From Bolinopsis microptera (taxonomy: Eukaryota; Ctenophora; Tentaculata; Lobata; Bolinopsidae), in the NCBI RefSeq assembly GCF_026151205.1, contig NC_087082.1:2820001-2880000 (forward strand): a stretch of 60,000 nt of DNA. The letters are read 5' to 3'. The notes beneath the pieces were generated by a model. That model saw nothing but the letters and a program-made list of their open reading frames with translations, made no database searches and was not told the origin of the DNA. The first letter of the stretch is position 1. The number at the start of each line of letters is the position of its first letter. The translations under genes and the position numbers were made by a program. Positions 2,675 through 60,000 of this stretch are shown here, in pieces.

Positions 2675-3397
2675 CTACGACGCAGGAAAGTCCATGCCGT
2701 GCTTTGATTTGATGTAAGCGAGTGTGCTGTTGAAATGCTGAACGATCTGATTGGTAGCTTCTCCGGCCTCCAGCCCAGGCATGTCATCCCGGATTTTACC
2801 CACTAACTGGGATATCATTGCTTGCGTCACCTGGGACACAGTTTGTTGTTAAGAAAATGTTAAAGTGTTGAGAAGTAAATGAACATTTTTTTAATCGAAA
2901 ATTGATGCATTTTTTGCTAAGTTTTCTGGTATTTAAGGATTTGTTATCTTTTTGAAGAGTATTATAAGTTTTTGAACTGTGAGTAAATTTAAGACTCACA
3001 TCTGCACAGCCATTGTCCAAGAAGTAGATGTATTTGTTGAGTAATTCCACGAACAGCTGTACCTAGAAATGTAATAATAATATGATAAATTATCATTGAA
3101 ATTCCAATTGCTATCAAATATTATCGATAGTATTAAGAAGACAGGCCTCAAATAATCATAGTCACAAGTCAAATTCCTGAGCTGAATAATAAAGCAAATT
3201 CAATATTAAATCGTAAATTAACTACGATATAAAAGAAATTTCATTATGTGATTACACAAATCGAAGCTAAGTAGCATGATAAAATACCTGGACGGATGGT
3301 TCCATACATTGATTACTGATACGTACAGCCTTCTTCATACTATCTAAAACACGTTTTGTTTCGTTCATCGGACTCCCTTCGTTCTCTCTATTTTTAC
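2675..3397 (-). CDS. VPS35: VPS35 last three exons (p-r)
   Basis: Exon 3288-3397 gives [20 protein letters not shown] then [17 protein letters not shown]; exon 3000-3062 gives [20 protein letters not shown]; exon 2675-2830 gives [20 protein letters not shown] and onward to the stop TAG. These match the C-terminal region that contacts VPS29 in other animals ([42 protein letters not shown]). Introns here are 170-225 bp. Confidence 0.93.
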
Positions 3398-30300: not shown

Positions 30301-33300
30301 AGTGCTGCTGGATCTGCAACATGTTCTCAATGTGAAGCAGGAACATTCAGTGCTGCTGGATCTGCAACCTGTTTTCAATGTGAAGCAGGAACATTCAGTG
30401 CTGCTGGATCTGCAACCTGTTATCAATGTGAAGCAGGGACATTCAGTGCTGCTGGATCTGCAACCTGTTCTCAATGTGAAGCAGGAATATTCAGTGCTGC
30501 TGGATCTGCAACCTGTTATCAATGTGAAGCAGGAACATTCAGTGCTGCCGAATCTGCAACATGTTCTCAATGTGAAGCAGGAACATTCAGTGCTGCTGGA
30601 TCTGCAACCTGTTCTCAATGTGAAGCAGGAACATTCAGTGCTGCTGGATCTGCAACATGTTCTCAATGTGAAGCAGGAACATTCAGTGCTGCTGGATCTG
30701 CAACCTGTTATCAATGTGAAGCAGGGACATTCAGTGCTGCTGGATCTGCAACCTGTTCTCAATGTGAAGCAGGAATATTCAGTGCTGCTGGATCTGCAAC
30801 CTGTTATCAATGTGAAGCAGGAACATTCAGTGCTGCTGGATCTGCAACCTGTTCTCAATGTAGAGCAGGAACATTCAGTACTGCTGGATCTGCAACCTGT
30901 TCTCAATGTGATGTAGGAACCTTTAGCGTTGGCGGTGCAAGTTACTGCATATCTTGCGATATGGGAAAGTCGACAAACGTTGAAAAAACTAGATGTGGTA
31001 GGTGGTAAAAACATGCTTTATTTGGAATAACCCACGGTGTCATAGATTCAGATCAATAATCTAACTTTAAACTTAACATCGTGATATTTAACAAAGAGGT
31101 ACTGAACTTGGCATATCATCCAAAAGTAGATTATATCCCAGAATGATCAGCTAGGAAAGTGTCATCACCTCATCGGTCAACTTTTAATAACCTTTCAACC
31201 TTCCTAGACCCATGTTCCAGTGGCTCCTACAAACACAGTTCTATGAAAGAATGTGACCAGTGCCCCACAAATACCTACAGCAGGGACAGTGCGGGATTGT
31301 GTACATCATGTCCTTGGGGATCTATCGCTAGTGAAGATCACACGAAATGTGGTATAATGAATAAAACTACAAACTTTACCCTTTACTTCCGACTACCCAA
31401 TATATATTGCAATACCCAATACCCATGCACTGTTTTATTTTCACAACGAGCTTATTATTAACTATCTAAAATAAAACTACCATCATAGATACGTTTAATT
31501 GTATCCCTTTATACCGCAGTATCGTGCGAGGGATTACCCTCAAGCTGGAAGGAAATGTTGACAGAGACTCAGTTCCCCCTCCCACCCGGGGGTGAAGTGC
31601 CCCTGAAGTGTAGTCCTGGATACAGTCTGACTGGAGATAACCCTGTCACGTGTGTTCAGGGAACAGAGTTCTCCTTCTCTAACACCCCTTCTTGTGAGCT
31701 AGGTATGTGAGGAGAAAATGAATAATTTAGAGCGTGTTTGTCTTTTCCAATAGTTTCTTCAATATCTTCGATTGATTGATGATTCATTTCACAATTCGCT
31801 ATAATGCATCTTCTTTCAGACGAATGCAGCAAATTACAAGACATAGAAAATCTAGAAACAACTGCTCAGTTTCCAGTGTCCTACAACACCCCAGTGACAG
31901 TGCATTGTGATATTGGGTACTCCTTGATAGGTGGTGACGTCATTATTTGCATTAGAGGCGATCAGTATCGGTCCATTCTCAGTCAGCTTCCATCGTGCCA
32001 AGAAAGTGAGTTATTATTTAATAGAAAATAGTGGAAGATTTGTTGAACTTAACCGCTATGAGTAATTCAATGCTAAATTCGGAAACACAAGGTATTAACT
32101 ATTGGTGTAATATCTAACAGTATGTACTCTGTATAAAACAGTATCTGTACTCTGTAGAATAACAGATATCAGTTTGGTGTGTACACTTTGACTTCATAAT
32201 ACTATACCATAACCATGTTTATCAAATAATCAGAGAAATGCTCCGGACTTCCTCCTGATATCTCGGATCTGGAGACGAGCACCCTCTTTCCTGTGAGTCA
32301 CAGAACAAGATTGAAAGTGAGCTGTTCAGGAGACAGAGAACTGAGGGGAGACAAGGTCATCACGTGTAATCAGGGTACAGACTTCCAGTTTCAACAGAAA
32401 CCTAAATGCAATGATGTCGGTATGTACAAGTTAAAGATAAGATACAAAATATATCAACAAAAGTCGTGATAACCAGGATTAAGGATACCTCCAGTCTCCA
32501 CTATTCCAATTATGCATACCTCATTATCAAATGAACAATAACCAAATTATACATTACACCAACACTTCCAGGAATTTGTACAGAGTTACCAGTAGGACGG
32601 CACTTGAAAACAGACTCAGTATTCCCGGTGAAGAAGGGAGACATGGTGTTTGTGAACTGTGTTCAGGGGTTTACTCTTACTTCTGGAGACAGAATGATAA
32701 CTTGCGTACAGGACGCTGAATACATCTCATCGGGTCAACTGCCCACTTGTATTATTAGTGAGTGGATATTGGATATTCTTGTGATGGCAAGTCCTGAGGT
32801 CCTTACACTAATATTTTGATCATATAACGATCCGAATAGTTGAACTTGAACAGATATCAGAATATGATGTCAAACAACAGCTGATTAACTGCTTTCAAAA
32901 CAAAGTGGTATTTTCAGACAAGTGCACTGGACTGCCAGATGTGTTGGACCTGAAGACCAGCACCTCACTAGCTGTGGACCACGGAACTAGAGTGGAAGTG
33001 GACTGTATCCCGGGATACAGTCTTACAGGGAGCCGGCTTATCACCTGTATCAAGGACAAGATCTGGGAGTATGAGCTTACTCCTTACTGTTTTCTAGGTT
33101 GGTTTTTGTGGCGATCTATTTATTTTAAACCCTTAAAATCTCTAAGATATAAGTTAAGATAAAAACAGCAATACGGCTACCCAGGTATAGGTCTAAGACA
33201 TAAAAACGGATATTTTATGAAATTTATGAAAGAAAAGGGTAAAAAACCTCTCTCTCCCCACAAAACAGGGCAGCCATTACGTCACTGCCATTGGGGGGGG

Positions 33301-36300
33301 AGCCAAGTGGATATTTGTAGATATTTGTAGATTAATGTAGAATGGATAATCCACGAAAAAGTGGATGACATTCTACAAATTTATACATTTATCTCCAAAA
33401 ATTCAGTAGAATTTCTGGGCACATATTTGAGATATACATTTTTTGTAGATAAATGTAGATATTTGTAGATTATTGTCAATGGATAATTCACGAAAATTCT
33501 ACAAATTCTACAAATTTATACATTTATCTCCAAAAATTCAGTAGAATTTCTGGGCACATATTTGAGATATACATTTTTTGTAGATAAATGTAGATATTTG
33601 TAGATTATTGTCAATGGATATTATGGATAATTCACGAAAAAAGTGGATGACATTATCCAAATATCTACAAATATCCACTTGGCTCCCCCCTGCCATTACG
33701 TCACTGCCATTACGTCACTGCCATTACGTCACTGCCATTACGTCACTGCCATTACGTCACTGCCATTACGTCACTGCCCTAACCTCCTTCAGACAAGTGT
33801 ACAGAACTACCAGCAGCTATGTCAGACATGACAACAACCACCACCTTCCCCGTGATAGTAGGAACAGTGGTGGAAGTGAACTGCAAGCCTGGTCACACTC
33901 TCACCGGGGACAATACCATCACTTGTATCAAAGATGTTTCCTTCACCATCGGTCAACACCCAGCTTGTACCATAGGTTTGATTCTCAGCAACAATTGTCA
34001 AATTTGTACACGCAAATATTCGTAAAATTATCTATAACTTATATGGGGGAAATAAAGATATTAAAACTAGAATCTCCAGATTACTGCACGGGGATAATAA
34101 CAGAAAACCACCTATCAACTACCGCCACATATCCCATCACATACGGAACTACCATCACAGTGGAGTGTACTCCTAAGTACTCACTGTTGGGCAGTAAAGT
34201 TATTACCTGCGACAAGGGGATTGTCTACTCTCACCTGTTTTCACGGCCTAAGTGTGTAAACCCAGGTATGCTACCCAGCTGAATTTGTCAAGATGATATA
34301 TTTGAATATAAAATGGCAGTATCAGTATTTAGCCTTTTTGACTATAATTTTCACTGTATTATTAATTTTATACTTATTTTCCACAGTAAATTTGGTCATA
34401 AACGTGATTATATTATGGTATTATTGTTGAACTGTAGTTGTGATCTACAGCTGTCAGTATAAGCCAAGTTAATGTTGCCTATAAATGTTGACTTTTATTG
34501 TCCACTGTTTCAGTCAGATACTTAACTACAGATATCCATCTCAACCACACAGTCATCAAATAGTTTATTTGTATAAATTAGTGTTTTTTAAACTGTCAAA
34601 AATTATATATTACACGTTGAGGATAATATATTGTATCAAACTTTATTAAAAAACTTTAACACGCTTACAGGTTGGATGGCTTCATGTTACCAGAATACGT
34701 TATGATAATACAAACACTGAGTTACTATGAAGGTACTAGGGACGGTCTTGATAGCTGACTAAACACTTTGATCAGCTGATTCTCACGAGTTTATTTGATT
34801 TCATTCAAAATGTTGAACAATACGTATAATTGTTAAACTATGTTCTCAGATCGGGTACATAGACACTAGACAGTCACTACTCAATTATCCCATGCAAGAA
34901 ACTTTAAACAATTATAGTGTGCGTATTTACCTATTGAAAATTAAAATATGACCGGTTTTTTCCATTACCCCTCTGCTGTGGTCTGTTGCGGTCGAGTCAT
35001 AATGAGTTTTGGTTTAATAAAACACAGAATTTTTCTGAATTTCCGATTCATGTTTATTGTTTAAAACTCATTCTCCAGTTGTTTACTGAACACGCTAATA
35101 TTTTATGATCTCCACTCGTTCAACATTAGAAATGTGTGAAAACCGACACCATCGTTTAAATCGTGCGAAACATTTTCAGACTTCCAGACACACGATTTGC
35201 AGATTATAAGCCGATTTGTACATTACTGTCCGGAATATACTAGGGTCACTTGATACTTTTTTCAATATTTATTTTATTTTTAATTAGTTTTTTATTAACT
35301 GCTCATGAGTAATCTAATTTATCCGTCACAGCGTTAGTCTCCAGGTGCATTAATTAAAATAAACTCATAAGTAAGTTGAGTTTATTTCTTTACTTTTTAC
35401 AATAATTGTTGGTCCTTATTGTAGTATTACTTATATACATTATACATATTATAATACTAGTACATCACAGACTCACAGAGTGCTGTGCAAGATGGGAAAT
35501 TGGATTTAGGCTTTTCTCTGAGAAATCTAGTAATAAGAAAATATCATGAAATAGCAAGGTGCAGGACTGGGAGGACTTTTACTAAATTTGGGTTCAGTCT
35601 GGTAAAAACAGCTTGATTTAGGTTTTTTTCCTGGAAAATAGAGCTTGATGTTTTGTTGATCTCCTAGTCGATTCGCAGATTTTTCTGAAAGGTGGGCTCA
35701 TATTGCATGAATAATATTTTCTTTTCACTAAATAGTTGTGAAATCTGGCTCCAACCAATTCGCGAATCATATTATTATTATAGTAGCAAAATGCAGGGGT
35801 TCATATAAAATGTTGGTCCAGTAGGGTAAATACACAACTTTAGTTACATACATTGTCTTGAGTGCAGGACGCAGTTTATGTTAAATTCATTGTTTGCTGC
35901 GCATCTACACTTGGTGGTAACAGCTGCTGAAAATGTTTTATTTATCTTTTAATATACCTTCAACTCCGGCAAAGTGCCATTATCTTCTTTTCTGTTGTAG
36001 GATTAGTAAGTTATATAGAACATTAGGCTGGTAATGTATACTAATGATGAACAGTTAGAGTATACTAAGTATATAATTATATAATTAGCTGATCGATGAC
36101 GTTGAGATGGACAATGAATTGTTGAACGTACTTGACTCCTAAGTCCTGGTCGTAGATCCCAACGCACCAGCGCAGTTCAATTACTTTTATATCTTGATGA
36201 GGCATGGTGCTTCGGCTGCCATAACCTTAGTACACTCATGACCAAACAGGACACACAAATTATCGAACAATTTTATTAGCTTTAATAGCATTGAATTCTA

Positions 36301-39300
36301 CTTTTTATTTGGGCCTAAGTCACACCTGTCTTACATTCTTGCATTTCAAATCATAGTTGTAACGTTTTATTGTAAGGTTACTTCGAAAACTAATGAACAG
36401 TAAAATTATATCAACCAGAGGTTGAACTTATCAATAAATAATTGTCAGCTGTAGTTTATTAAGTTGTTGATATTAAATAGAGGTCTTGACTTTAATTGGT
36501 ATGGTCCATTGTTGAGAGTTCTCCTTTGATTTTATTTTGCGCGATGAAATAAAGGTTTTTCTTCTAATTTAAAGGTAAAGTCACCTCAGTCATTTGTGTT
36601 TCAGTTTTGCTGGATATCTAGGATCTAGATGTTTGTCAAAGTTAACTAGATATTTTGAAATTTTACCTTTAATCATGCATTTTGGCCAGTCTTTAAGTCC
36701 TATCCTGCCATTATTTGAACAAACAGCCAACGATAATTTAGAAAGTTGACATGGGAGCAAGATCGCCGTATCTTCTATCTTAATTCCCGTGTCCATCTCC
36801 TGACACACAGAAACAACAATAACAACCCCCCCCCGCCCCCCCCCCCCCCAACCCCATCCCTTTCCTATTCTCGCAATAATTTCCTATGGTCATCATAATT
36901 CAGCCTTTCTTTAATATACGAAACTGCTCCGAGCTAAGTATTATCATTTATCACAAACTTTAAGGCCAAGCATTATATCTAGAAGCCTGCACGTATCCCG
37001 ACAGTGATTATATAACCAATATTAATTATTATCATCGCATTATTACAGTAAGGTGGCCGCTGATAATTATCATCCCAATTCAATTAGATGATGAATGACC
37101 TGGATAGCTGTATAAAAGGAGAATTATCAATTTATTATTTTATCAATGCAATATAGTAACGATAATTTGACAGTTATTATCTTGAATATTATTAAAGTCT
37201 GAGGAAATGTAATTTAATACCTTGGCCACCAGTTTAAGCTTTCGTATTTGGACTATTCATGATTATCTAGGATAACTCTCTTCTTTGTACTTTAGAAGAA
37301 CTAGCAGGAACCCGTATAATATAACCCTAAACGGCGTCAAGACTCAAGATACTAAAATAATTATTACCTATTTAATTGGCGTTTTTGACTCCATTTGGGG
37401 GTTCAAATTTTCGGCTCTAAAATCATTATTCCTTGGCAAATTTTTTAATTTTTCGTGCTGATTTGGAGGCCATTAAAGCATTTGACCCAGCCAAAAAAGT
37501 TTCAGTTGTATATCTTTTACGGTTTTTGCGGAAAGTCGCGTTAAAGTTGATGCCGTGGTGTCAGTAAAATGGCACGGATATATATCGTCTCGCTTTATAT
37601 ATAGTAAGATTCTCATGCTTATGGTTGCTATAAACCGCCGCTCATTACAATTAACGAAGCACGAGCCAAACAATTTTATATAACATTCAGTTTAGAGGAC
37701 CATTCAACTTAATGACAGATCAGAGATGATATTATTTTATAATTGATCTGATAAACTAGTATAATCTAAAGGTGATAAAGCTAGTATTTCACTTGTTCAA
37801 TTACAAAACTGTTTAAAAGCTGCTTTTTTCTAATGAATCTAGGAAATTTGAGACTGATATTAGAAAGCACTTCATGTGACCTTGATATAGTATAACGTAA
37901 TGTTGTGGTCACATTTAGCGTTAACACATGGTGTTGTCTTTGGTGGTGTTTCGTCATGATAGATAATATTGTCCATGATAAATTTTCCATGGTAAATTGT
38001 CCATGCTGTTCATTCATAGTCCTCAAGGTTAATTTGATATGAATTGATTGTTGAACTTTTTATAAATAGTTTAATAATTTCCAACTCACATTAGTGATTT
38101 AGAGTGGTATTCAATATTCAGCAGTTATTTTTACAGTCACGTGGGACTGTAATAGGTCATATAGCTACGTGGGGACAAATCTGATCCCCCTAGGCCCCTA
38201 CTCCTTTATAATATTATATTAATTAAAAGATATTTATACTTGAAGTATTTTCCCATCTTAGTATCCAGACCGACATTATTCGGCAGTATCCAAGTAGACC
38301 GACATGTGTTCCCGAACAGGTGTTCCCAAACAGGGTTAGGGTTAGGGTTAGGATTAGGAAGTGCGGACTGCGGACTACTATACTGTGTCTGGTGTAGTAC
38401 TAGTAAATCAAATATAAGTTTCACATGTTCGTGAGAAACAAGGGCGTGTCTTGTGAGAGCAATCAAGCAGAATTGCCCACCAATTATTGCTATTAAATAT
38501 AACATGTTATTGACTTAAAGTAAAGGTGTGATTGGGCCCTGACATGTCATGTGAGCACCTACTTTATAATGAAATAAGTATAAATATGGAGGAGAAATAA
38601 ATAAGTCTACAATTCAGATTTGATCTCATGCAAACATGCTCTTGTAATTACTGTAAGTTATCAAAAATTAAAACAGTTTTTGACTAAGAGGCTTAAATAG
38701 AGTACAGTTTTGCTCGGGTGAAATGCACTGATTCTACTGAACCGTGTCTGGCATAGTATATCAATTATACGTGTGAACTCCAGGTGTAAAACAATCAATC
38801 AGAAATGCCCGCAATCCATGACTATTTTATAACACGTCGCGAACTTAGAGAGTAGTGTCTCGACCATTAAGCCAACCGCAGCTAATATCTTATTTACCGC
38901 GGTTGGCTGATTTTAAATATAATATTAATGTTGCTATTCTAGGCAGATTTTAAAACTTAACTTACCAAGTTACCATGACTACCCTTTCCAGACATTTGAT
39001 TACGTATTCAAGTTCATTGCCAATACTAATTCACAGTTCACGCGCATTTAATACTGTCTGTTCAATCAAGATAATATAGAAATAGCAAATGAATAGCTTA
39101 ACAGCATTCTTTGAAATTATCGTTACTTAAAGTAGGGTGTTTAACGAATATCTCTCCTCAGAATAAATGAACCACTCCAGCAACTTCACCCTTGAAGAAA
39201 TACACCAGGACAGTGAACGAGTAACCTGGATTATCTACAACACCCTCATCATACTCTCCTCTCTTATCGGCGACACGATAATCCTCATAGCAACAACCAA

Positions 39301-42300
39301 GTACCATGCCATCAAACTGCACAGGATAATAGTGGTGGTGATCCAACATCTGGCGGTGACAGATCTGCTGCTGACCCTCTTCAAGGTCCTCCCCATGACA
39401 GTTTCACTCGTTACTAACAGCTGGGTCTTGGGAGGGTTCCTCTGTTGTTTGAACCCTCTTGTTGGGTGGCTGTGTAATCCTGTCACTATCTTCCTGACTT
39501 GCTTCCTCGCTACAAGCAAGCTCTTAATAGTCAAGCATCCGTTAAGAGCCCTTACTTGGTCTAAAAAGGGAGCACAGATTGCGTGTTTTGGAGTGTGGGT
39601 GATATGTTTACTTAATCCAGCTCAAATTATAAATTACATGGTTTTAATTCAGAGAGGGACAAGTGGTACCTTCCTTAGCTACCTTGTTTACGAATGTGTT
39701 TTCGACCGAACTTCAATAGAGGTCCCTTCGTGGCTGGGAAAGTGGCTGTACATGATCTATGGGGGTGTTACTTTCTTAATAATGCTGGTAACCTGTGTGC
39801 TAACATCAGTGTTGCTGCTGTTGTTTGCAAGGAAAGCAGCAAAGAGACAAGGACGGAAGTTACACTGGCAAGGGATGCTGACGATATCATTAACTGCAGT
39901 TTCTTTTATAGTCTCTTATTTTCCTTTCTTTATCATGAGACTAACAAGTCAAATGTTTGCCATTAAATACTCCATCCCTGCCTTGAGGACAGCACATTTT
40001 CTTCCCCACATTAACATTATGGCAAACTTTTTCATATACTCTGTCACTGTGAAAAGCTTCAGAGAGTTCTTGCTGGCAAGATTCAGAACGATTAGGTTAA
40101 ATTTGGGATTGTTGAAGATCCCGGAACAGTTTCATAGTACGGTCATTGCACAGAGCACGACTCTAGACAGAACAAAATTTGTTAATGACAAGTTGGTGTT
40201 TCAAACAGTGCTTTGAGTTTTTTGAGAGTTTATTTCCGAAGAATCATTGATTGACCTTAAGACTATAATCCACGGATCAGATTTTATGAAAGGGCTTGTG
40301 AATGTTTTTTGAGTGAATAAACTTTTGCTGACTCAAGGTCGCCAGGCGTCGCTTTTAGAGTTGAGACACAGTTAATAAACTGCGGAGTGACTAAAATGCT
40401 ATACAGCAAAAACAGAAAGCTCCAACCAAACACTCCACCTACTGATCCTAACCACCCTAACAACTCTCAAGCTCTCTCTCTTCAACCCTCATTCCCTCAC
40501 TCCTCTTGGTGCACAAAACCATTCTAACCTATGTATGTCCCCCTTACGGGTTCCACAAGCCCAACGGTACATAGTTAGACGAAAAACAGAGAAGCCTTGA
40601 TTGCCAGATCAAGGACTGCATCAGTAGCAGCGAAATACGGATATACCTTCTCCCTTACAGTCAGCGAGCTGACAACTATCTGACTGTGTCTTTTAGGCCT
40701 TGCCACACCACCTTCGCTATTGCATCCGCTCGCCCGTATTCACTGACACATGCCACACCTGGGTTTAGTATGAAGATGTACGCATATTCACCCAAGATGC
40801 GGAGATGCCTCAGTTTAGCAAGTTGAGATACAACAGCAAACTCACAGGAGCATGGATCAGAATCATCAGTTACCAACCTGACACCGTTTCGGGGCTTTAA
40901 TCGCAATACGGTTTCCTGTCAGGCGCCCCAGCAGTCCACCCTTGAACCACCATCTGATCCGAGAGTCACTTGAGGAGACCCGTTAGAGCTCGCAATTGGC
41001 GACGAGATAACGTTTATGGTTCCTCTAGATGTTATAGTGAACTCTCAAGCTCCAACCTTCCTGAACTCCCACTCCCTCTTTCTCGATAACAAGTAAATCC
41101 ATCTGGAACAGTGGGCTGCCTCTTTCCCACTGTCCCGTACCAGCTTCTTCAGCTCTCTTCCTCTAAAACCAATCCTCCTCGCAGCTCTCTCCAAACTCTG
41201 CGCAACCACTCCCCTAGCTCCAACTTCGACTGCGGCATTATAACAGCACCAACCTTTCGCCTGAATCTCAGCCTGCAGACCACTGTATCGGTCGAGTTTG
41301 TACTCGTGCGATTCAGCGATCCGCTCTTCAGATGGTACTGTTAGCTCCCACCAAATAACTGTCTTTGCCGACCTTGAGAATATCACAAGGTCCGGCCTCA
41401 GCCGTGTTTCCACAATCTCACTGGGAAACTTAAGCTGCCCCTCAAGGTCTGACAGCACTATCCAATCCCGATACCCACTCAGGATCCCAAAACCACGACT
41501 CTCCTTCCGGTCGTCTGTACCTGCTTTTCTCCTCCCAGCAGGAACAAAATCAATGAACTGTCTTCCATTGCCGGCCTTGTTCTTATAAGTGTTCACTCGG
41601 CGATCACAATGGAAGACAACCTGTTCAGAGATCTGCTTCAGAACCTTGTCGTGCCGCCATCTATACCTTCCTTGACTAAGGGCCACCTTACACCCAGCCA
41701 AAATGTGCTGAATGGTGCCCATCCTCTCCTCACATAACTTGCACTTCCCATCCTCATCTTCACTCCACTTGGAAACCATAGAGGGGGTTAAGAGGGTGCC
41801 GTACACAGCACTTAGCATGAACCCAATAAGTGAGTCACCATACTTAAAAAGTGTATGCCAGCTCAAATCCGTCTTCATTACGAGCTCTCTCCACTCACCC
41901 CACCTGCTCTGCATCTCCAGAGAACCTACTTGCACCTCCCTCTCTCTTTCAATGTTCTCCTTCACTCTCAGCATAACCTCCCTCTCTCTTTCCCGCTCAT
42001 CCATCCTCTCCCAAGGTTTTTTCCAGTCACCAAAACCGATGCCAACTCTTTTTTGAGGTTGCACCATCCCTCGCACCGATTCACAGACCAAATCTCTTCT
42101 GGCCTCTTCCAGTTCTGTCTCAGGCCTCCAAACTCTACCAGAACGAACTTGGGGCTGGACTGCTTTAATCAGGTCATCCTTAGATGTCTGATAAGATTGC
42201 AACAGTCGACACTTCTCTATCTTCCATGTATCTGTCAAGCTGCTCACCGGTAAGGCCACACTGGATGATTGACTGAACAGACAAAGACCACTCAGAGTGT

Positions 42301-45300
42301 GCCCCACCCCTAACCACTTTCTGAGGAAACTGTTGGTATTCTGTTCCCATCTGGTAACTGTTGTGAACGGAATATCATAGATGGCAAGAGGCCACTTCAG
42401 TTTTGGAAGGACCATGTACTGATATCCCCAGCACTTCTGGAGTCCAGTAAGGGAACTTTCATCGAGTCTCCGAAGAAAAGTGTTAAGGTCGACCTTGGTT
42501 GAGTCGATGACTGATTTGTCATTTCCTTCCACTCTTATCCATCTCCCAAGGAATTTTATCGGCTTCTCTGACACATTCGGAATCACCTCACCACCCAACT
42601 GCAAACACAACTCTCTCTCCACCTCCTCCTCTCCTACCACTACCTCCTCAACCCACCTCACAGCCACTCCCTTCTTCAACACCAGTGCTCTGGACTTGGA
42701 GGACTTTAACTTAAATCTGGACCAGTCCACATACTTCTGAAACACATTGAGTAACGTTTGCATATCTTCTGCACGTGCGGTGGTCAGACAGCTATCGTCC
42801 ATAAACAGCTTCAGAGTTGGTATTGGTGTGTCATCCTTGATGTACTCAATGCTTCTCGGAACCTTAGACTTTAGGTGTTCATGCCCAAGGTTCATGCACA
42901 AGACAAACAAGATGACTGATATCACACACCCCATGAAGATTCCTATCTCAAACTGCTGCCAGTCTGATGTCACCGTTCTTGAGGAGAACCTTCCGAATAC
43001 CCCGGAGAAGTACCGTAGGATAATGTTGATAACCTTCTCAGGGACGTTGTAGAAACGGAGGGCCCTGGCAATCAGAACATGGGGTACCGCTCCGTAAGCG
43101 TTAGCCAGGTCAAGCCATACTACACTCAGATCCTTCTTCTTGACCTTTGCCTCCTTCAGTACCTCCCACATGGCACCAAAATGCTCCGTGCACCCACGGA
43201 CGCCTGGCACACCACCCTTCTGTATAGAGAGGTCTACATATCCATTCGAGACAACAAAGCTGGTCAACCTCTTCGCCAGGATCGCCAAATAGATCTTCCC
43301 TTGAATGTTACCCAGGGAAATAGGCCGTCCTGAACTTGGTGAAAAGTCGCCATCCGCCTTTGGGATGTAGACACCCTCGAAATACCTACAATTGTCAGGA
43401 TATTCTTCTAACTTATATCCAGTTCTTAGCAGGTCCCAGAGATTCTTGGCAATACCAGGACATCTCTTGTACACTGTGTACGGGATCCCGTTGTTACCCG
43501 GGGCACTCTTGCTCCTTGCCTTCTTTACAACCTCCTCAAACTCCTTCTTGGATGCCGTTGTGAGGTCAAAGGCAACAGAGGGTTCAGGAGCACACTCAGG
43601 CAGACCCTCAAGTATACCAAGGGGCTGCTGCCGGGCTGGATCTCCGTATGTTCTGGCCAAGTGATCATCTAGCTCCTCCTTTGAACACTTAAGCTCACCC
43701 ACTGGACTTGGATTTAGCACTCCCTTGACTGTCTTGAAAGGGTCGCGTCCAAAATCCCCTCTAACTCTCCTTATCTCTCTCTGCTTCTGTCTCCTTTTCT
43801 CAGCCCTCCTCAACTTCATCAAACGACCAGCCAACACTCTCAGTAATGCTTCATAACCATCCTTCTCTATCTCACTCCTTGCCTTCCTTTTCTTCCTCCT
43901 CAACTGCTTCCTCTTTCCAATCAGGCTGTCAATCTCCTCCTTTCGTCTGTTCTTAAAGCTCATGGACTTCTTTCCACTACCAGCACCTACTTCAACAATA
44001 CCAAACAACTTGACACCCTCGTCGTACACTACATCACAATGACTCACCATCTTCTCTTGAAATGGTTTCCGCTTGAGAACCACTGCAAACTTCTCTACCA
44101 CACACTCATCAAACTTACTCCATCGACCATCATTGGACGCCGGCCACTTCACCTTGTCTCTTTTGCTAGCAGGTGGTTCGACTGAAATTCTCTTGTCAAG
44201 GAGAGCCCGGATATCTCTAGCACTGTGGTTGTTTTCCTGGCTAGATACCTCCGTCGAAGTTACAGGCATACTGCCAGCCGACGACTCCCCTTCCCAAATG
44301 CACTTCATTCGACCCCGATGGATATTCCTGCCTTTGACTGTGTCAAACCGACGTCCACATACACAGATACAACTCTGTCCCTCTCCTGCTTCAACCGTCG
44401 AGGACTCTCGACTACCTAAGTTTGTCCTTTTCCGGAGTACAGGTAAGTGGAGGGATGCCTACAAAGCCTTTATTGTTAACCCGGGCAACTCGTCTCTAAA
44501 TAAAGACTCCCGGGGCCTTAGAGAAGCAGGAGGCGTGGTACCGATGTAGGCTGAGGTAGCCACTTTTATGACCCCGTCTGACTTCTCTATTGCAGATCCG
44601 CTGCAGGCTCCGACCACTACCCAACCTAAAGACCAAAACCAGGCATACTATCTGTCTTATCATATGGGTCTTACCCCATGGTAGCTGGCCTATCCCAGCA
44701 GTATTCAACAAAGCAGAGTTGAGACACAGTTAATAAACTGCGGAGTGACTAAAATGCTATACAGCAAAAACAGAAAGCTCCAACCAAACACTCCACCTAC
44801 TGATCCTAACCACCCTAACAACTCTCAAGCTCTCTCTCTTCAACCCTCATTCCCTCACTCCTCTTGGTGCACAAAACCATTCTAACCTATGTATGTCCCC
44901 CTTACGGGTTCCACAAGCCCAACTTAATCCCTACACAAATCTTCGTATTTTACTGTAATTCAGAATATTATCTTTTGTTTCACTCTTTTGCCAAATCCTC
45001 AATAACTTTACCAAGTGTAACGATAAAATATCAAGCATACAAAAATTTGAGACAATTTGAAAATCCAATGAAATTTTTCTGCCGTCGCAAAATCAGCGAA
45101 TAGATGAGGAAATTTGAATAAAAAATGGTGATCACCTGCCCCAACTTTGATAAAACAAGATCCAACTTACCAACAAGACTCTGTTGAATCTCAAAGTCCT
45201 CTGGATCCTCGGGTTCTTTTGGCTGGTCATCTTGGTCGGAGATCAAACAGGACATCATCGTCAGGAATAGGTCAACCTGAAATAATACTGTAGAATATTG

Positions 45301-48300
45301 GGAGGTTATGATAGATGTTAGAAGCTTCATTATACATTGTTATCTTACCTTATGATACGGAATATAGGCGAGGTCTTGTGGTGGACCTCCACACGACTTT
45401 TTTTAAATTTCGGTATTTTTCGAAGTTCAGTTTTTATATGAAAAAACTGAATTGAAAGCTAATCTAAATTACAAAATGTGTCTTTATGGATATCCCTTTC
45501 ACCCAGTCGCAGCTCTTGTCGAACTACAGTACGTGTACCCTAGATGGAGCTAACATCACAGCGAGCTCGTTACCTCAACGATGCAAAATTCATAGACCTC
45601 TAGAACTCTTGAAGGACAGAATTATCTTTAGTACAGTGAGGTGCGTCTAGCAGACTGGGCCAACAATTCTACCACTTCAATAATTCAAGGTACCAAGTTG
45701 CCTTCGCAAATCAGCTCTAAACCATCAAATTTTATACAATGAGTCCCATATCCAGGAGCATAGCTTTTAACATATTTTAATGAGTGCGCACCATTTTCAT
45801 TAGTTTAGCAGTATATTAAGATATGTCCCTCGCCCAATGCTCAGACCCAGAGACGGCCACCTGTGGTAAAACCTTCATCCCTTAAATTAGCAAGTATATC
45901 AAATGAGCTGACAATGAGGCCGATGTCAAATGGGCTCAGTTTATAATAATTTTTTTACGATTTGTGCCTTCCCCTCTGCCCTTTGCTAAAACCGGCTGGA
46001 TCTTCAAATAATGCGTTTATGTTCTCCAGCCACACGCAAGACCGGCTAAAAAGGACTTGAAATATTTAATTTATGAGATCATTCCAGACAGCTCAGATCA
46101 TGCCATACAGAGTTGTCATATGAACTCTACCCCAGATCTAGCCCATTTCTAGGTAATTATATTCAATCCACGGATCACATCAGTATCACTAATTGTACGT
46201 CACTGATTGGTGACGACTGACGTGATCTGACCCTCTTTGAGGGCCGGATCAGTTTCCGGTCACAAAGTCCCCCAGTGGCTCAGATCTATCAAGGAGGTTG
46301 TTATTTAATAGTTTTACAAAAACTGTTCAATGGTATTTAGACTTGTTGATATTGTAGTTCTATGGTATTGAGACTTGTTGATATTGTAGTTCTATGAACG
46401 CTAGGATGGTATTTAGACTTGTTGATATTGTAGTTCTATGAACGCTCGTTTAGCGTGAACGCTAGGATCATTTAAACTCGTTTAGCGTTTTCTGAAGAGT
46501 TCTTCAACCGAAACTGAAGAAAACACTTGGATATAATGACAGCTATGGTGATCGTCATAATTGTTTGGTTTGTGGTGCCTCCTTGCCATGCCTTGGGTAA
46601 GTGAACAAGATTTTGAGTTTTTCGGACCGACCAAGGAATATCTTTGATTTCATTGCAAGTATGAAATGCAGTACCTCCCGCACCACTCGTTCAATTGGAT
46701 GCAAAGTTAAGCTCACATTTCATCTTTCATCAGTATTTCCTAGCAAAATAAAAAGAAAACCTTAACGTTTTTGTGAAGTTGTGAGATTACCAGACTGGAC
46801 TCACTTCTTAGCCATGATCAGAATCCGAATAAATTATAATTTCTCAGAATTACCAGTTTGGCCAGATGACTTTGCCATGAGTTTCAACGGAAAAAAAGAA
46901 GGCTTTACCTGCATCCTGCTTGAAGAAAAAACAAAAGGTTGGGACGATGAAACCAATTATCTGTGTTGGAAAGCAAGAACGAGAAACCCCGACATACAGT
47001 TCGACCAATTAGGTTAGATCTTGATCATGCTAATAGGTTTTAAGCGAAACTAAGTATACGTAACTGAAATATACGTACGATTAAAACATTCCATTCAGAG
47101 GAATTGGATAAAACTGCAGTTTGGTGACTGAAATTATTGTTTCTTTAATTACAACTATATTGAAGATACTGTAATATATACTGGCATATTTAAGTTTTAA
47201 CACAACATGCTCAATGCTCATGACTAAGATTACAAATTTGTGAAATGTAAAAATATATTGTCTGTAAAATGAATGAATGATAAACTCTTAGGAACTGCTC
47301 GCATCGGTGGACTGATTTCCAATCATATGAGATGTGTGATAGTCAAGGAGCCTAAATCGGCATATTGGGAGAACAACCGACTTTGCGTGCCGTTTGGATC
47401 ACCCTACACTCTATCTTGGTTCCACGAGGATGTAGACGATATTTCCGGACTGAAGTGCTTGAGCTGGAATGATCCAGAAACACCGAAAAATTTGGGCTGG
47501 GAAAACAACTACCTCTGCGCTACAATGAGTGGTGAGCAATTTGGAAAATTATTACATAAATTCGGATAAAATAATGATTTTCAAAATATCTTTTAAAAAC
47601 GTTTAACGTAAAAACACTTTCAGAAGACCTGCCAGTTTGGCCAGATGACTTTGCCATGAGTTTTGACGGCAGAAAACAAGGCCACTCCTGCCTTCTACTA
47701 CATGAATTTACAGTAGGGTGGACAGACAAGACCAACTTTCTGTGCTGGATTGTTGAGAAAAGACATCCTGACTTTCGATTCGACATATGGGGTAAATCAA
47801 TTCATATCATATAATATAAAAAATTGAGTTGAATTTAATTCTAGTCCCCGATTAGAATACGGCCTGCTGTAAGTGCTTACACTAATAAGATAAATAATTT
47901 ATATCTATGAATTCCAAGGAGCTGCTCGCCCCGGTGGACTGATATCCAATAATATGATATGTGTGATAGTAAAGGAGCCTAAAACTACCCACTGGGCTGA
48001 CAACCGACTTTGCGTGCCGTTTGGATCACCCTACACTCTATCTTGGTTCCACGAGGATGGAGACAATATTTCCGGACTGAAGTGCTTGAGCTGGAATGAA
48101 CCGCAAACACCGAAAAATTTGGGCTGGGAAAACAACTACCTATGTGCTACAATGAGTGGTGAGCAATTTGGAAAATATTCACATATAAATAATAAATTCG
48201 GATAAAATAATGATTTTCAAAATATCTTAAGCACAACTTTCTCCTTTATAATGTAAAAACATTTTCAGAAGACCTGCCAGTTTGGCCAGATGACTTTGCC

Positions 48301-51300
48301 ATGAGTTTTGACGGCAGAAAACAAGGCCACTCCTGCCTTCTACTATATGAAGTCACAGTAGGGTGGACAGACAAGACCAACTTTCTGTGCTGGATTGTTG
48401 AGAAACGACATCCCGACTTTCGATTCGACATATGGGGTAAATTTAATCGATTCATATCATATAAAAAATTGAGTTGAATTTAATTGTAGTCCCCAATTAG
48501 AACACGGCCTGTTTTAAGTGCTTACACTAATAAGATAAATAATCTATGAATTCCAAGGAGCTGCTCGCTCCGGTGGACTGATATCCAATTATATGAGATG
48601 TGTGATGGTCGAGGAGCCTAAATCGGCATATTGGGAGAACAACCGACTTTGTGTGCCGTTTGGATCACCCTACACTCTATCTTGGTTCCACGAGGATGTA
48701 GACGATATTTCCGGACTGCAGTGCTTGAGCTGGAATGATCCGGAAACACCGAAAAATTTGGGCTGGGAAAACAACTACCTCTGCGCTACAATGAGTGGTG
48801 AGCAATTTGGAAAATATTTACATAAATCCGGATGAAATAATGATTTTCAAAATATCTTAAGCACGTTTCTTATTTAATGTAAAATCACTTTCAGAAGACC
48901 TGCCAGTTTGGCCAGATGACTTTGCTATGAGTTTTGACGGCAGAAAAGACGGATACTCCTGCCTTCTACTATATGAAGTCACAGTAGGGTGGACAGACAA
49001 GACCAACTTTCTGTGCTGGATTGTTGAGAAAAGACATCCCGACTTTCGATTCGACATATGGGGTATATAAATTCAAATTATATTAAAAAAGAAGCAAAAT
49101 TCAGATGAATTTAATTCTAGTCCCCAATTCGAATACGGCCTGCTTTAAGTGCTTACACAAATAAGATAAATAATTTATATTTTATATCTATGATTTCCAA
49201 GGAATTCATCGCCCCGGTGGACTGATATCCAATTATATGAGATGTGTGATAGTCGAGGAGCCTAAAACTCCCATCTGGGCTGACAACCGACTTTGCGTGC
49301 CGTTTGGATCACCCTACACTCTATCTTGGTTCCACGAGGATGGAGACAATATTTCCGGACTGCAGTGCTTGAGCTGGAATGATCCAGAAACACCGAAAAA
49401 TTTGGGCTGGGAAAACAACAACCTCTGTGCTACAAAGGCTACATGGGGTAGGTGAACAGCAAGTTGACACGACTATTCTTTGTGTAGAATATAAGATTAT
49501 AATAATTATTCGATTTTTGAATATCTAGAAACAAAGTCGTGTTAAAGTATCATTTAAGTTCATGTATGTTATCGTCTCGCTTTAGAAATAGTAAGACATA
49601 ATTTAAACTTGAGGAATTTCAGGAGTGACACGTTACAACCTGCGCCTTACAACACCCGAAGAAACCTCAATATTAATAGGTAAATATTAACAGCTGGTAA
49701 TTACACCGGCACTTATTGAGAGCCCCGCAACAGCCCCGCAACAGCCCGCACAGACCCGCAACAACTGCCAACACCCCGCAACATCTGCGCAACTGCCCCG
49801 CAACAGCTGCCAACAGCCCGCAACAACCCCGCCACAGCCCGCAACAGCCCCGCAACAGCCCCCGCAACTGCCCCGCCAACAGCCCGCGCAACAGCCCCGC
49901 AACAGCCCCGCAACAGCCGTGCAACAGCTGCGCAAGCAGCCCCGCAACAGCCCTGCAACAGCCCGCACAGCCCGGCAACAGCCCCGCAACAGCACCGCAA
50001 CAGGCCCTGGCAACAGGCTGCGGCAACAGCCCGCAACAGCCCACAGCCGCAACAGCCCCGCAACAGCCGTGCAACAGCTGCGCAACAGCCCCGCAACAGC
50101 CCCGCAACAGCCCCGCAACAGCCCCGCAACAGCCCCGCAACAGCCCCGCAACAGCCCCGCAACAGCCCCGCAACAGCCCCGCAACAGCCCCGCAACAGCC
50201 CGCAACAGCCCCGCAACAGCCCCGCAACAGCCGTGCAACAGCCCCGCAACAGCCCCGCAACAGCCCCGCAACAGCCCCGCAACAGCCCCGCAACAGCCCC
50301 GCAACAGCCGTGCAACAGCTGCGCAACAGCCCCGCGAAACCTCTCCCTCCCAGTTTTTCAGCGATATCCTTTAACCCAGATATCTCAAGACACGCATAAA
50401 GATCAGAACCGTACGGACAAGAAAAGGTGCGAAAACTCGCCCTTACATTTTAGCAATTGGCTAAACATTCAAAACTTCCATCGGCCAAATGACGAAGTTG
50501 TGTGATATTTTTGTTAACATACCAATTCTGAGCAATAGATATAAAATTTTAAAAACTAAAATTAAAATCTGACCTGGTCATGGGAGTCGATGTGAGTGTC
50601 AGTCTGGATGACGTGTTCCGTAATATAAACGCACAACTCCTTTCTGACACGATGGTCCAGGAAGCTGAAGAGAGGGGTGAAATGTTCCAGCTGAAGGATT
50701 GTTAGAATGTCCTGGTAGTGGTCCACTGGCACTCTCAGCATGCGACTCAGCTCAGTCGAGCACCCTTTAGCTCGTGATCTGCGGTCATTGGGATTAGATT
50801 TGATTCAAATTTACGGCCAAAATTTTAAGTTTATATATTAAGGTTTCTTTGTTTTCCATTATTGACACAAAAGTGGAGGGATCAGGGAACCCTACGAGAA
50901 TACATACTTGTCTTCCTCGAAAATGTTGAAAGAGTTTTGAAGGACTTGGTCGACGTATCCTGTCTCGGTCGGATACACGTTGAGGGCTAGTTTTATCAAT
51001 GCTGATTGCAGCGCTAGGATGTCCTCTGGAGGCATTTCAGTGCGGCTCTGAAATGAAAAATGGTTTGTTTTATGAACAAACTAGGAAAAAACAGTAGAAA
51101 TACAAATTATGACAATTAGTCAGCTTGGTAAACATCGTTTAGGTAAAATTTGGGCCAACTTGCACCAATACCAACCTGTATGATTTGGGTCACTTTACCA
51201 CTGAATATCTCGAACAATTTGATATCTTCTGGGATATTGTTAGGATCTGCCTGAGCGTAGTTTGAAAGACGACCAATCTTGCTGATCAAAATATTTCTCA

Positions 51301-54300
51301 CATTGACAGCGCCCTGAGTGAATTGTTCGTTATTTTTACGGGGATGCCGACCGGAACTATTCCATTCTTTGAGATAGCACAGTGTTTTTTAAGATACCAT
51401 TTTACACTTACATTCTGTGACACATGATAATCTTAAAAGTAACTTCATACCTGAGGTTGACAGCAAGTATCCAAGAATATGTCCAAGGTTTTCAAGTGAA
51501 ATTCGTCAGGAAATACCTGAAACCAGATTAGATCAGTGATACGAATTCCATTCAGTCGACATGTTTTCTTCCGAACTTGCAATTCGTAAGAAAGCAACGC
51601 GTTTACAAGATCAACCGTAGGTGCGCGGGGTTGTATATAGACTGCTTGCTCCGCGCCTTCCAGATATCTGACATTTTTTTGGTAAACTGTGACAGACTGA
51701 CTAAATGTGCCAACTTGCAATTTGATCCAAAGACAAGTCATATTTGAATCGAAACCTTAGCCGTTAGCTTATCAGAGTATCAGATTTCGCCGAGGAAGAA
51801 ATATATTTCGCTTATACCACCTAAGAAGTATCTATTTCAAAACAATATAAGAAAACAAATCGGGTGAGAGGTGGTCAAATACATATCTTAAATACCTGGA
51901 TAATGCAATCCATGAGGTACTCTTGAGCGATGCTGTCTTTGCAGTTGATGAGTTGTTTCAGTATAGCAGGTAGCACATGCTGAAGGGTGTGTCGGGTGAG
52001 CATAATTTAAAACGGATTAATAAACATTGATTTACGTTCATAAATTTTGATTCGTATCATGAATATTAAATGATTCTCCTCAATACTATTGTATTTACTT
52101 TAAAATTGCTGTTATTGTAAAAAAAAGTAAACATTAAAACATATCCCTACATTTTGATACTTGCTAACAGTCACGCCCTCGAGTCTGCTTAGCCGTTCCA
52201 AGTTCGTTCCTACAAGGATCTTCAACTCCAACCTCTCCTGTTCACGCTTAGTTCTGTCCCGAGAATGTCCCTTGAGATAGTTGCATACTTAAATAATAAA
52301 ATTGATAAGTAAGGGGTGAAAAACAGATATATTTTTTCAGTCAATTTAACATAAAATGAACGAATAAGGAGATATAGTTTGTCAATATAAACCTACATAC
52401 CTGGTGCTGCATTCGAACCCATAGTTTATTCATCTCAGAGAAATTTAAAAGAATGAAATCGATGCTGTCATCGACTGTGCCAGTATCTTCCGATCTAAAT
52501 AAAAAGGGTTCATCCAGTACACAGTAATAGTAATATAAGAAATAAACTGCCTCTATTTTTTAAGAGGACAATTTACGGTTAAAGTTCTCCACAAAAAGAA
52601 ACAAATTTACTAAGTAATAATATAACTAACGTCTCATCAACATCTGGAAGGACATCCCTGGTGGAAGTTAGCAGGAAGTTTCGGAGGAAGAGTCCCCTAA
52701 GTGGGTGCTGAACACCTCGACACATCTCCACTAGATCCTGGACGAGAGTTAATTTAGATTTAGACACATCTCAACTAGATCCTGGACGAGAGTTAATTTA
52801 GATTTAGACACATCTCCACTAGATCCTGGACGAGAGTTAATTTAGATTTAGACACATCTCAACTAGATCCTGGACGAGAGTTAATTTAGATTTAGACACA
52901 TCTCAACTAGATCCTGGACGAGAGTTAATTTAGATTTAGACACATCTCAACTATATCCTGGACGAGAGTTAATTTAGATTTAGACACATCTCAACTATAT
53001 CCTGGACGAGAGTTAATTTAGATTTAGACACATCTCAACTAGATCCTGGACGAGAGTTAATTTAGATTTAGACACATCTCAACTAGATCCTGGACGAGAG
53101 TTAATTTAGATTTAGACACATCTCAACTAGATCCTGGACGAGAGTTAATTTAGATTTAGACACATCTCAACTAGATCCTGGACGAGAGTTAATTTAGATT
53201 TAGACACATCTCAACTAGATCCTGGACGAGAGTTAATTTAGATTTAGACACATCTCAACTAGATCCTGGACGAGAGTTAATTTAGATTTAGACACATCTC
53301 AACTAGATCCTGGACGAGAGTTAATTTAGATTTAGACACATCTCAACTAGATCCTGGACGAGAGTTAATTTAGATTTAGACACATCTCAACTAGATCCTG
53401 GACGAGAGTTAATTTAGATTTAGACACATCTCAACTAGATCCTGGACGAGAGTTAATTTAGATTTAGACACATCTCAACTAGATCCTGGACGAGAGTTAA
53501 TTTAGATTTAGACACATCTCCACTAGATCCTGGACGAGAGTTAATTTAGATTTAGACACATCTCCACTAGATCCTGGACGAGAGTTAATTTAGATTTAGA
53601 CACATCTCAACTAGATCCTGGACGAGAGTTAATTTAGATTTAGACACATCTCAACTAGATCCTGGACGAGAGTTAATTTAGATTTAGACACATCTCAACT
53701 AGATCCTGGACGAGAGTTAATTTAGATTTAGACACATCTCCACTAGATCCTGGACGAGAGTTAATTTAGATTTAGACACATCTCAACTAGATCCTGGACG
53801 AGAGTTAATTTAGATTTAGACACATCTCAACTAGATCCTGGACGAGAGTTAATTTAGATTTAGACACATCTCAACTATATCCTGGACGAGAGTTAATTTA
53901 GATTTAGACACATCTCAACTAGATCCTGGACGAGAGTTAATTTAGATTTAGACACATCTCCACTAGATCCTGGACGAGAGTTAATTTAGATTTAGACACA
54001 TCTCAACTAGATCCTGGACGAGAGTTAATTTAGATTTAGACACATCTCAACTAGATCCTGGACGAGAGTTAATTTAGATTTAGACACATCTCAACTAGAT
54101 CCTGGACGAGAGTTAATTTAGATTTAGACACATCTCAACTAGATCCTGGACGAGAGTTAATTTAGATTTAGACACATCTCAACTAGATCCTGGACGAGAG
54201 TTAATTTAGATTTAGACACATCTCAACTAGATCCTGGACGAGAGTTAATTTAGATTTAGACACATCTCAACTAGATCCTGGACGAGAGTTAATTTAGATT

Positions 54301-57300
54301 TAGACACATCTCAACTAGATCCTGGACGAGAGTTAATTTAGATTTAGACACATCTCAACTAGATCCTGGACGAGAGATAATTTAGATTTAGACACATCTC
54401 AACTAGATCCTGGACGAGAGTTAATTTAGATTTAGACACATCTCAACTAGATCCTGGACGAGAGTTAATTTAGATTTAGACACATCTCAACTAGATCCTG
54501 GACGAGAGTTAATTTAGATTTAGACACATCTCAACTAGATCCTGGACGAGAGTTAATTTAGATTTAGACACATCTCAACTAGATCCTGGACGAGAGTTAA
54601 TTTAGATTTAGACACATCTCAACTAGATCCTGGACGAGAGTTAATTTAGATTTAGACACATCTCAACTAGATCCTGGACGAGACTCGAGAGTTAATTTAG
54701 ATTTAGACACATCTCAACTAGATCCTGGACGAGAGTTAATTTAGATTTAGACACATCTCAACTAGATCCTGGACGAGAGTTAATTTAGATTTAGACACAT
54801 CTCAACTAGAACTAGATCCTGGACGAGAGTTAATTTAGATTTAGACACATCTCAACTAGATCCTGGACGAGAGTTAATTTAGATTTAGACACATCTCAAC
54901 TAGATCCTGGACGAGAGTTAATTTAGATTTAGACACATCTCAACTAGATCCTGGACGAGAGATAATTTAGATTTAGACACATCTCAACTAGATCCTGGAC
55001 GAGAGTTAATTTAGATTTAGACACATCTCAACTAGATCCTGGACGAGAGTTAATTTAGATTTAGACACATCTCAACTAGATCCTGGACGAGAGTTAATTT
55101 AGATTTAGACACATCTCAACTAGATCCTGGACGAGAGTTAATTTAGATTTAGACACATCTCAACTAGATCCTGGACGAGAGTTAATTTAGATTTAGACAC
55201 ATCTCAACTAGATCCTGGACGAGAGTTAATTTAGATTTAGACACATCTCAACTAGATCCTGGACGAGAGTTAATTTAGATTTAGACACATCTCAACTAGA
55301 TCCTGGACGAGAGTTAATTTAGATTTAGACACATCTCAACTAGATCCTGGACGAGAGTTAATTTAGATTTAGACACATCTCAACTAGATCCTGGACGAGA
55401 GTTAATTTAGATTTAGACACATCTCAACTAGATCCTGGACGAGAGTTAATTTAGATTTAGACACATCTCAACTAGATCCTGGACGAGAGTTAATTTAGAT
55501 TTAGACACATCTCAACTAGATCCTGGACGAGAGTTAATTTAGATTTAGACACATCTCAACTAGATCCTGGACGAGAGTTAATTTAGATTTAGACACATCT
55601 CAACTAGATCCTGGACGAGAGTTAATTTAGATTTAGACACATCTCAACTAGATCCTGGACGAGAGTTAATTTAGATTTAGACACATCTCAACTAGATCCT
55701 GGACGAGAGTTAATTTAGATTTAGACACATCTCAACTAGATCCTGGACGAGAGTTAATTTAGATTTAGACACATCTCAACTAGATCCTGGACGAGAGTTA
55801 ATTTAGATTTAGACACATCTCAACTAGATCCTGGACGAGAGTTAATTTAGATTTAGACACATCTCAACTAGATCCTGGACGAGAGTTAATTTAGATTTAG
55901 ACACATCTCAACTAGATCCTGGACGAGAGTTAATTTAGATTTAGACACATCTCAACTAGATCCTGGACGAGAGTTAATTTAGATTTAGACACATCTCAAC
56001 TAGATCCTGGACGAGAGTTAATTTAGATTTAGACACATCTCAACTAGATCCTGGACGAGAGTTAATTTAGATTTAGACACATCTCAACTAGATCCTGGAC
56101 GAGAGTTAATTTAGATTTAGACACATCTCAACTAGATCCTGGACGAGAGTTAATTTAGATTTAGACACATCTCAACTAGATCCTGGACGAGAGTTAATTT
56201 AGATTTAGACACATCTCAACTAGATCCTGGACGAGAGTTAATTTAGATTTAGACACATCTCAACTAGATCCTGGACGAGAGTTAATTTAGATTTAGACAC
56301 ATCTCAACTAGATCCTGGACGAGAGTTAATTTAGATTTAGACACATCTCAACTAGATCCTGGACGAGAGTTAATTTAGATTTAGACACATCTCAACTAGA
56401 TCCTGGACGAGAGTTAATTTAGATTTAGACACATCTCAACTAGATCCTGGACGAGAGTTAATTTAGATTTAGACACATCTCAACTAGATCCTGGACGAGA
56501 GTTAATTTAGATTTAGACACATCTCAACTAGATCCTGGACGAGAGTTAATTTAGATTTAGACACATCTCAACTAGATCCTGGACGAGAGTTAATTTAGAT
56601 TTAGACACATCTCAACTAGATCCTGGACGAGAGTTAATTTAGATTTAGACACATCTCAACTAGATCCTGGACGAGAGTTAATTTAGATTTAGACACATCT
56701 CAACTAGATCCTGGACGAGAGTTAATTTAGATTTAGACACATCTCAACTAGATCCTGGACGAGAGTTAATTTAGATTTAGACACATCTCAACTAGATCCT
56801 GGACGAGAGTTAATTTAGATTTAGACACATCTCAACTAGATCCTGGACGAGAGTTAATTTAGATTTAGACACATCTCAACTAGATCCTGGACGAGAGTTA
56901 ATTTAGATTTAGACACATCTCAACTAGATCCTGGACGAGAGTTAATTTAGATTTAGACACATCTCAACTAGATCCTGGACGAGAGTTAATTTAGATTTAG
57001 ACACATCTCAACTAGATCCTGGACGAGAGTTAATTTAGATTTAGACACATCTCAACTAGATCCTGGACGAGAGTTAATTTAGATTTAGACACATCTCAAC
57101 TAGATCCTGGACGAGAGTTAATTTAGATTTAGACACATCTCAACTAGATCCTGGACGAGAGATAATTTAGATTTAGACACATCTCAACTAGATCCTGGAC
57201 GAGAGTTAATTTAGATTTAGACACATCTCAACTAGATCCTGGACGAGAGTTAATTTAGATTTAGACACATCTCAACTAGATCCTGGACGAGAGTTAATTT

Positions 57301-60000: not shown

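Follow-up and report, generated by a model that had tools for sequence, protein, structure and literature searches.

An intron of the VPS35 gene of the ctenophore Bolinopsis microptera was found to be occupied, over most of its length (59510-52738, minus strand), by 152 tandem copies of its own 3' splice site. These copies are probably a tolerated minisatellite that grew by slippage from the exon border; the genome is rich in repeats, and exon definition probably selects the terminal acceptor. The window analyzed was the whole stretch of 60,000 nucleotides, and the coordinates of the relevant features are listed in Table 1. TRF called one array at 52719-59426 (period 44, 152 copies, 98% matches), and wrap-around alignment over 59425-52719 resolved 152 complete head-to-tail units, 121 of which were the same as the consensus without any change. 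Each unit is composed of the last 25 nt of the intron (TAAATCTAAATTAACTCTCGTCCAG) and the first 19 nt of exon c (GATCTAGTTGAGATGTGTC), and the units thus straddle the exon-intron border. The original prediction of about 150 tandem copies was borne out, as was its statement that the real exon is the last unit continued; the authentic border is the outermost unit (52762-52719), which runs on into unique exon c sequence. The shared exonic part, which had been put at 17 bases, was corrected to 19. The consensus unit matches the real exon at 18 of these 19 bases, as most units carry GTTG and the real exon carries GTGG.

Table 1. Positions of VPS35 and of the array-related features in the window.
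Feature	Position	Strand	Remarks
VPS35 gene	2678..60000	-	exons collinear with P0001 to its last residue at 2678
VPS35 exon b	59511..59580	-	ends KDILQ; donor CAG/GTCAGT at 59511/59510
VPS35 exon c	52631..52737	-	107 nt; starts DLVEMCRG; donor GAC/GTTAGT
Intron b/c	52738..59510	-	6773 nt; about 85 nt at the donor end unique
44-bp tandem array, 152 units	59425-52719	-	TRF and wrap-around alignment
Terminal unit (real 3' splice site)	52719..52762	-	acceptor at 52738/52737

The gene carrying the array was identified from its sequence as VPS35, in agreement with the prediction. A tblastn search with human VPS35 as the query returned collinear exons on the minus strand. P0001 (a 96% relative with the precomputed domain Pfam PF03635) matched exon by exon over residues 40-780. 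The first exon runs past the window, and the 116 contig bases that follow encode residues 1-38 of P0001; the VPS35 exons cover P0001 residues 1 to 780. The donor of exon b and the start of exon c were located where they had been predicted. The b-c junction was checked in the best 120 of 4985 homologues (112 by pattern and 7 by eye; P0003 starts beyond the junction). It was intact in all 119 covering homologues, which read KDILx/DLVEM or variants with no insertion and show one residue between the junction anchors; they include P0001 and P0002 (2.4-kb contig). These homologues bear out the junction for the protein, and we infer from it that exons b and c are probably joined correctly in B. microptera. 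Without the 151 extra units and the small insertions, intron b/c would by arithmetic measure 110 nt, which is close to the ordinary intron length in VPS35. Among the other introns of the gene, 11 of the 16 measured were shorter than 400 nt and several were 128-137 nt (one intron was left out, and three borders were off by one base).

Additional open frames were observed in the introns of VPS35. A single 680-codon TRPC-like channel frame (6015-8057, minus strand) lies in intron 9611-3399 on the same strand as the gene; those of its relatives that bear names come from Bolinopsis and Mnemiopsis. Nested genes are reported to be common in the ctenophore Hormiphora (PMC8527503). Two glycosyltransferase-family-2 frames, closely alike by eye, are arranged tail to tail (19384-21090, plus strand; 22427-24013, minus strand), and a 32-bp x 16 array lies between them at 21909-22424 in the 26.6-kb intron. 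The same intron holds a rhodopsin-like receptor frame (39167-40216, plus strand) and a 1137-codon reverse-transcriptase frame (41045-44458, minus strand). Four similar frames of 93-103 codons, spaced about 620-645 bp apart, were found in intron 50573-45277 (47273-49455, plus strand).

As predicted, the unit carries TTAAC and a CAG acceptor. GTCCAG and the acceptor context CAG/GA were present in 152 of 152 units, the real one included, CTCTCGTCCAG was unbroken in 150 of 152, and 145 of 152 had TTAAC no more than 20 nt from the acceptor. Counted by eye, just 11 nt separate the branch-like A of this motif from the end of the intron, a tight distance. Of the 151 gaps between acceptors, 148 measure 44 nt and the other three 50, 50, and 51 nt; insertions of 6-7 bp are present in three units (starting at 57797, 54843, and 54705). 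Mild degeneration is seen in the first two units on the donor side (59425-59338). The consensus unit contains four GT dinucleotides, none of which is near the 5' splice consensus by eye. A decoy exon of the intron-retention type needs a 3' splice site plus a usable 5' splice site.

The 44-bp unit was not found elsewhere in the 264.65-Mb genome; there were at least 71 matches, and all those listed were inside the array. When 33 VPS35 exon edges were compared with the minus strand of the window (a copy being at most 8 mismatches in 40), the edge described here was the only one with copies, and 1 of 33 is what a chance hit would be expected to give. In a sample of the genome (eighteen 10-kb stretches at set positions, 177,204 called bases), tandem arrays accounted for 16.1% of the sequence. 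Minisatellite arrays, taken as those with a period of 15-200 and five or more copies, numbered 13 in the sample; one exceeded 20 copies and none reached 100. Thus, tandem arrays are common in this genome, and the 152-copy VPS35 array is unusually long. For Hormiphora, PMC8527503 gives 13% tandem repeat by TRF. Two further arrays were observed in the window. A 48-bp x 22 array (29850-30920, plus strand) is open in three frames, one of which gives a cysteine-containing 16-residue repeat, and it is probably a coding minisatellite. A GC-rich 11-bp x 57 array (AGCCCCGCAAC; 49721-50335) lies about 240 bp past VPS35 exon j and is open in six frames; the VPS35 edge beside it had no copies on the minus strand of the window.

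Use of the decoys would truncate the protein, as had been claimed. If exon b were spliced to one of the 151 upstream copies, a stop would follow after 10 codons (144 copies), 12 codons (2), or 16 codons (5). The 152 acceptors are 110-6773 nt from the donor of exon b, and their distances to the donor that comes next range from 107 to about 6770 nt. The first decoy acceptor corresponds to an intron of 110 nt, and the four decoys nearest exon b correspond to introns of 110-242 nt; an exon no longer than 500 nt would result from only 8 of the 151 decoys (107 + 8 x 44 = 459). Eleven other units were identical to the real unit over all 44 bases. Provided that the intron is spliced accurately, neither the branch point nor the sequence upstream can therefore be what marks the exon. 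The real site must then be recognized by its position and by what lies downstream, in the exon bases past the first 19 and the exon c donor.

Masking of the decoys by RNA structure was rejected on the basis of an ordinary fold energy and of the openness of the terminal acceptor. Five tandem units folded at -40.9 kcal/mol. When the units were shuffled and arrayed in tandem, the mean was -43.2 (sd 10.3), and 167 of 300 such arrays folded as strongly or more so. The terminal acceptor was no more open than the decoys (0.31 unpaired, compared with 0.36-0.45 in seven sampled decoys).

For human 3' splice sites of similar strength, PMC9225289 describes a strong preference for the upstream site when the flanking introns are short and a much weaker one when they are long. 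According to the same source, exon definition favors the sites closest across the exon, the switch between the two modes occurs near 200-250 nt, and exons longer than about 500 nt are poorly included. We assume that ctenophores obey these human proximity rules. As introns of 110-242 nt would arise from the first four decoys, and exons of at most 459 nt from the last eight, both rules could be tested on this one intron.

The variant pattern bears on how the array arose and on how far its assembly can be relied upon. The exon-identical G variant was found in 13 of 152 units, including the terminal one, and in none of a middle run of 93 units, a gap obtained in 2 of 100,000 random placements; the unit at 58853 carries the G variant plus a second change. 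These counts match the prediction that the variant survives near the two ends only, and the distribution is as expected of an array that grew from the exon border and whose middle part turned over. Substitutions gather at the array ends, and units in the middle hardly differ from one another. For the published B. microptera assembly, wtdbg and TGS-GapCloser were used, with polishing by pilon using Illumina reads (PMC10232365 section 12). Both the copy number and the mid-array homogeneity rest on this short-read-polished wtdbg assembly, and the uniformity may partly be a polishing artifact. Of the predicted history, growth from the border is consistent with the variants, and homogenization in the middle may partly reflect polishing. 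It is unlikely that the array as a whole was a short one that long-read assembly, closing of gaps, and polishing with short reads had lengthened or evened out, a process that could also leave near-identical middle units with substitutions concentrated at the ends. Several internal units are marked by substitutions and by the 6-7 bp insertions, and no block periodicity was visible by eye. The G variant reaches about 1.3 kb inward from each end, which is probably past short-read-pair anchoring, and an assembler could alter the length of an array but hardly make one at a unique exon border.

The functional readings were weighed against the same data. The original prediction had raised regulation through NMD or splicing delay, and nothing was found in favor of a function: the fold is ordinary, and the search for constraint across about a dozen variable positions, which gave no sign of function, had no power. 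A regulatory decoy, in which the copy number tunes VPS35 through mis-splicing to decoys (NMD) or delay, is considered improbable. All 151 upstream acceptors keep GTCCAG/GA and all lead to an early stop, which such a decoy would explain, but acceptor identity is expected from homogenization alone, and the variable positions hold too few independent mutations to reveal constraint. The human ABCA7 border array has a similar copy number and a length that affects splicing (PMC5954066), and a minisatellite of C. elegans is over-represented near alternatively spliced regions (PMC4039745); against the reading, only 1 of 33 edges of VPS35 is copied, and the fold is not special. The more specific proposal of a copy-number dial under selection, in which array length would set the decoy loss or delay of VPS35 pre-mRNA and thereby regulate retromer dosage, is quite unlikely. 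We consider it very unlikely that the array is on its way to a new gene structure in which an internal unit would be recruited as an exon border and introns would be gained by tandem duplication. This model was put forward for amphioxus border duplications by the globin authors (PMC3087553), but the exon frame of the VPS35 units is interrupted by stops and their GT sites look weak (CTAGTTGAG, GATGTGTCT), and therefore they cannot be coding exons as they stand. Many acceptors at equal spacing might also suggest recursive splicing, with units serving as ratchet points for piecewise removal of the intron. However, a ratchet point requires AG/GT; the CAG/GA found at 152 of 152 acceptors contradicts this reading, which we regard as next to impossible.

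In the preferred reading, that of a tolerated minisatellite with the terminal acceptor chosen by exon definition, a 44-bp segment across the 3' end of intron b/c would first have been duplicated, and the copies would then have increased in number, with slippage or unequal exchange as the presumed mechanism. Growth would have stretched the intron from about 110 nt to 6773 nt (the lengths follow from unit arithmetic, and the route is what we infer). The true exon would be the sole place where exonic sequence and a 5' splice site come after an acceptor in the next 100 nt or so. As the three elements occur together only there, exon definition would pick the last acceptor and pair it with the exon c donor. 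Decoys beyond the nearest eight would be too far from this donor. The four decoys nearest exon b would compete through intron definition, and decoy products, which carry the premature stop, would presumably be removed by NMD. Several points count against this reading: the decoys are transcribed ahead of exon c; the short introns in most of the rest of VPS35 suggest intron definition, which would favor the first decoy; the branch-like A sits close to the acceptor; arrays of such a size are unusual in this genome; and the copy number may be affected by the assembly. On the best reading, the array would be tolerated rather than useful.

This kind of structure is already known, smaller in lancelets and large in humans. 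Amphioxus "mirages" are described in PMC3087553 as tandem duplications of exon-intron borders; the cases are Adh3, TnC, PGBD5, and the globins BflGb6 and BflGb9, and those in PGBD5, Adh, and TnC are described in PMC3902484. As in VPS35, the mirages are minisatellite units each lying across an intron-exon border with its splice signal, and the cluster ends escape homogenization (PMC3087553). The signal is present in many but not all units in amphioxus, compared with 152 of 152 in VPS35. The class is also marked by length instability (germline or somatic) and undisturbed regular splicing. In BflGb6, the 3' end of the intron and the 5' part of the next exon are duplicated, as in VPS35, but in 6 and 3 units of 150-160 bp with 81-100% identity (PMC3087553), compared with 152 units of 44 bp, 121 of them perfect; PGBD5 has 2-7 and 3-6 units (PMC3902484). 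The mirage host is amphioxus and the host here is a ctenophore; amphioxus as the source of this array was rejected on VPS35 identity, which is 56% for the Branchiostoma protein among the homologues listed. Duplicated splice sites reportedly compete in cis, as described by Reed and Maniatis. Equivalent sites competing in cis, with position deciding, resemble the VPS35 situation (PMC9225289), but they are laboratory constructs or human site pairs, whereas VPS35 has a natural series of 152.

In humans, the ABCA7 intron 18 VNTR has a 25-bp unit beginning with the authentic splice site. Its copy number of about 12-427 is of the same order as that of the VPS35 array, and its length affects splicing; unlike the VPS35 array, it is on the donor side, polymorphic, and disease-linked (PMC5954066). 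The units of the human IFI6 (6-16) minisatellite likewise offer more than one usable splice site, although these are donor sites and give three mRNA species (cited in PMC4526556). New introns may also arise in humans from variable repeats located where exons and introns meet (PMC2812944). No ctenophore exon-border minisatellite was found among the open-licence papers listed for splice-acceptor minisatellites, mirages, VNTRs with cryptic acceptors, border repeats, and ctenophore minisatellites. What is new is the acceptor-side scale among the cases found (Adh3 and TnC copy numbers left out) and a host outside the chordates.

The value of the array lies in being a natural test of splice-site choice, with nothing yet showing a function. 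It extends exon-border minisatellites from chordates to ctenophores, as far as found. With 152 near-identical acceptors in one intron, at distances that cover the intron-definition and exon-definition ranges alike, VPS35 of B. microptera offers a natural experiment in how a 3' splice site is chosen.
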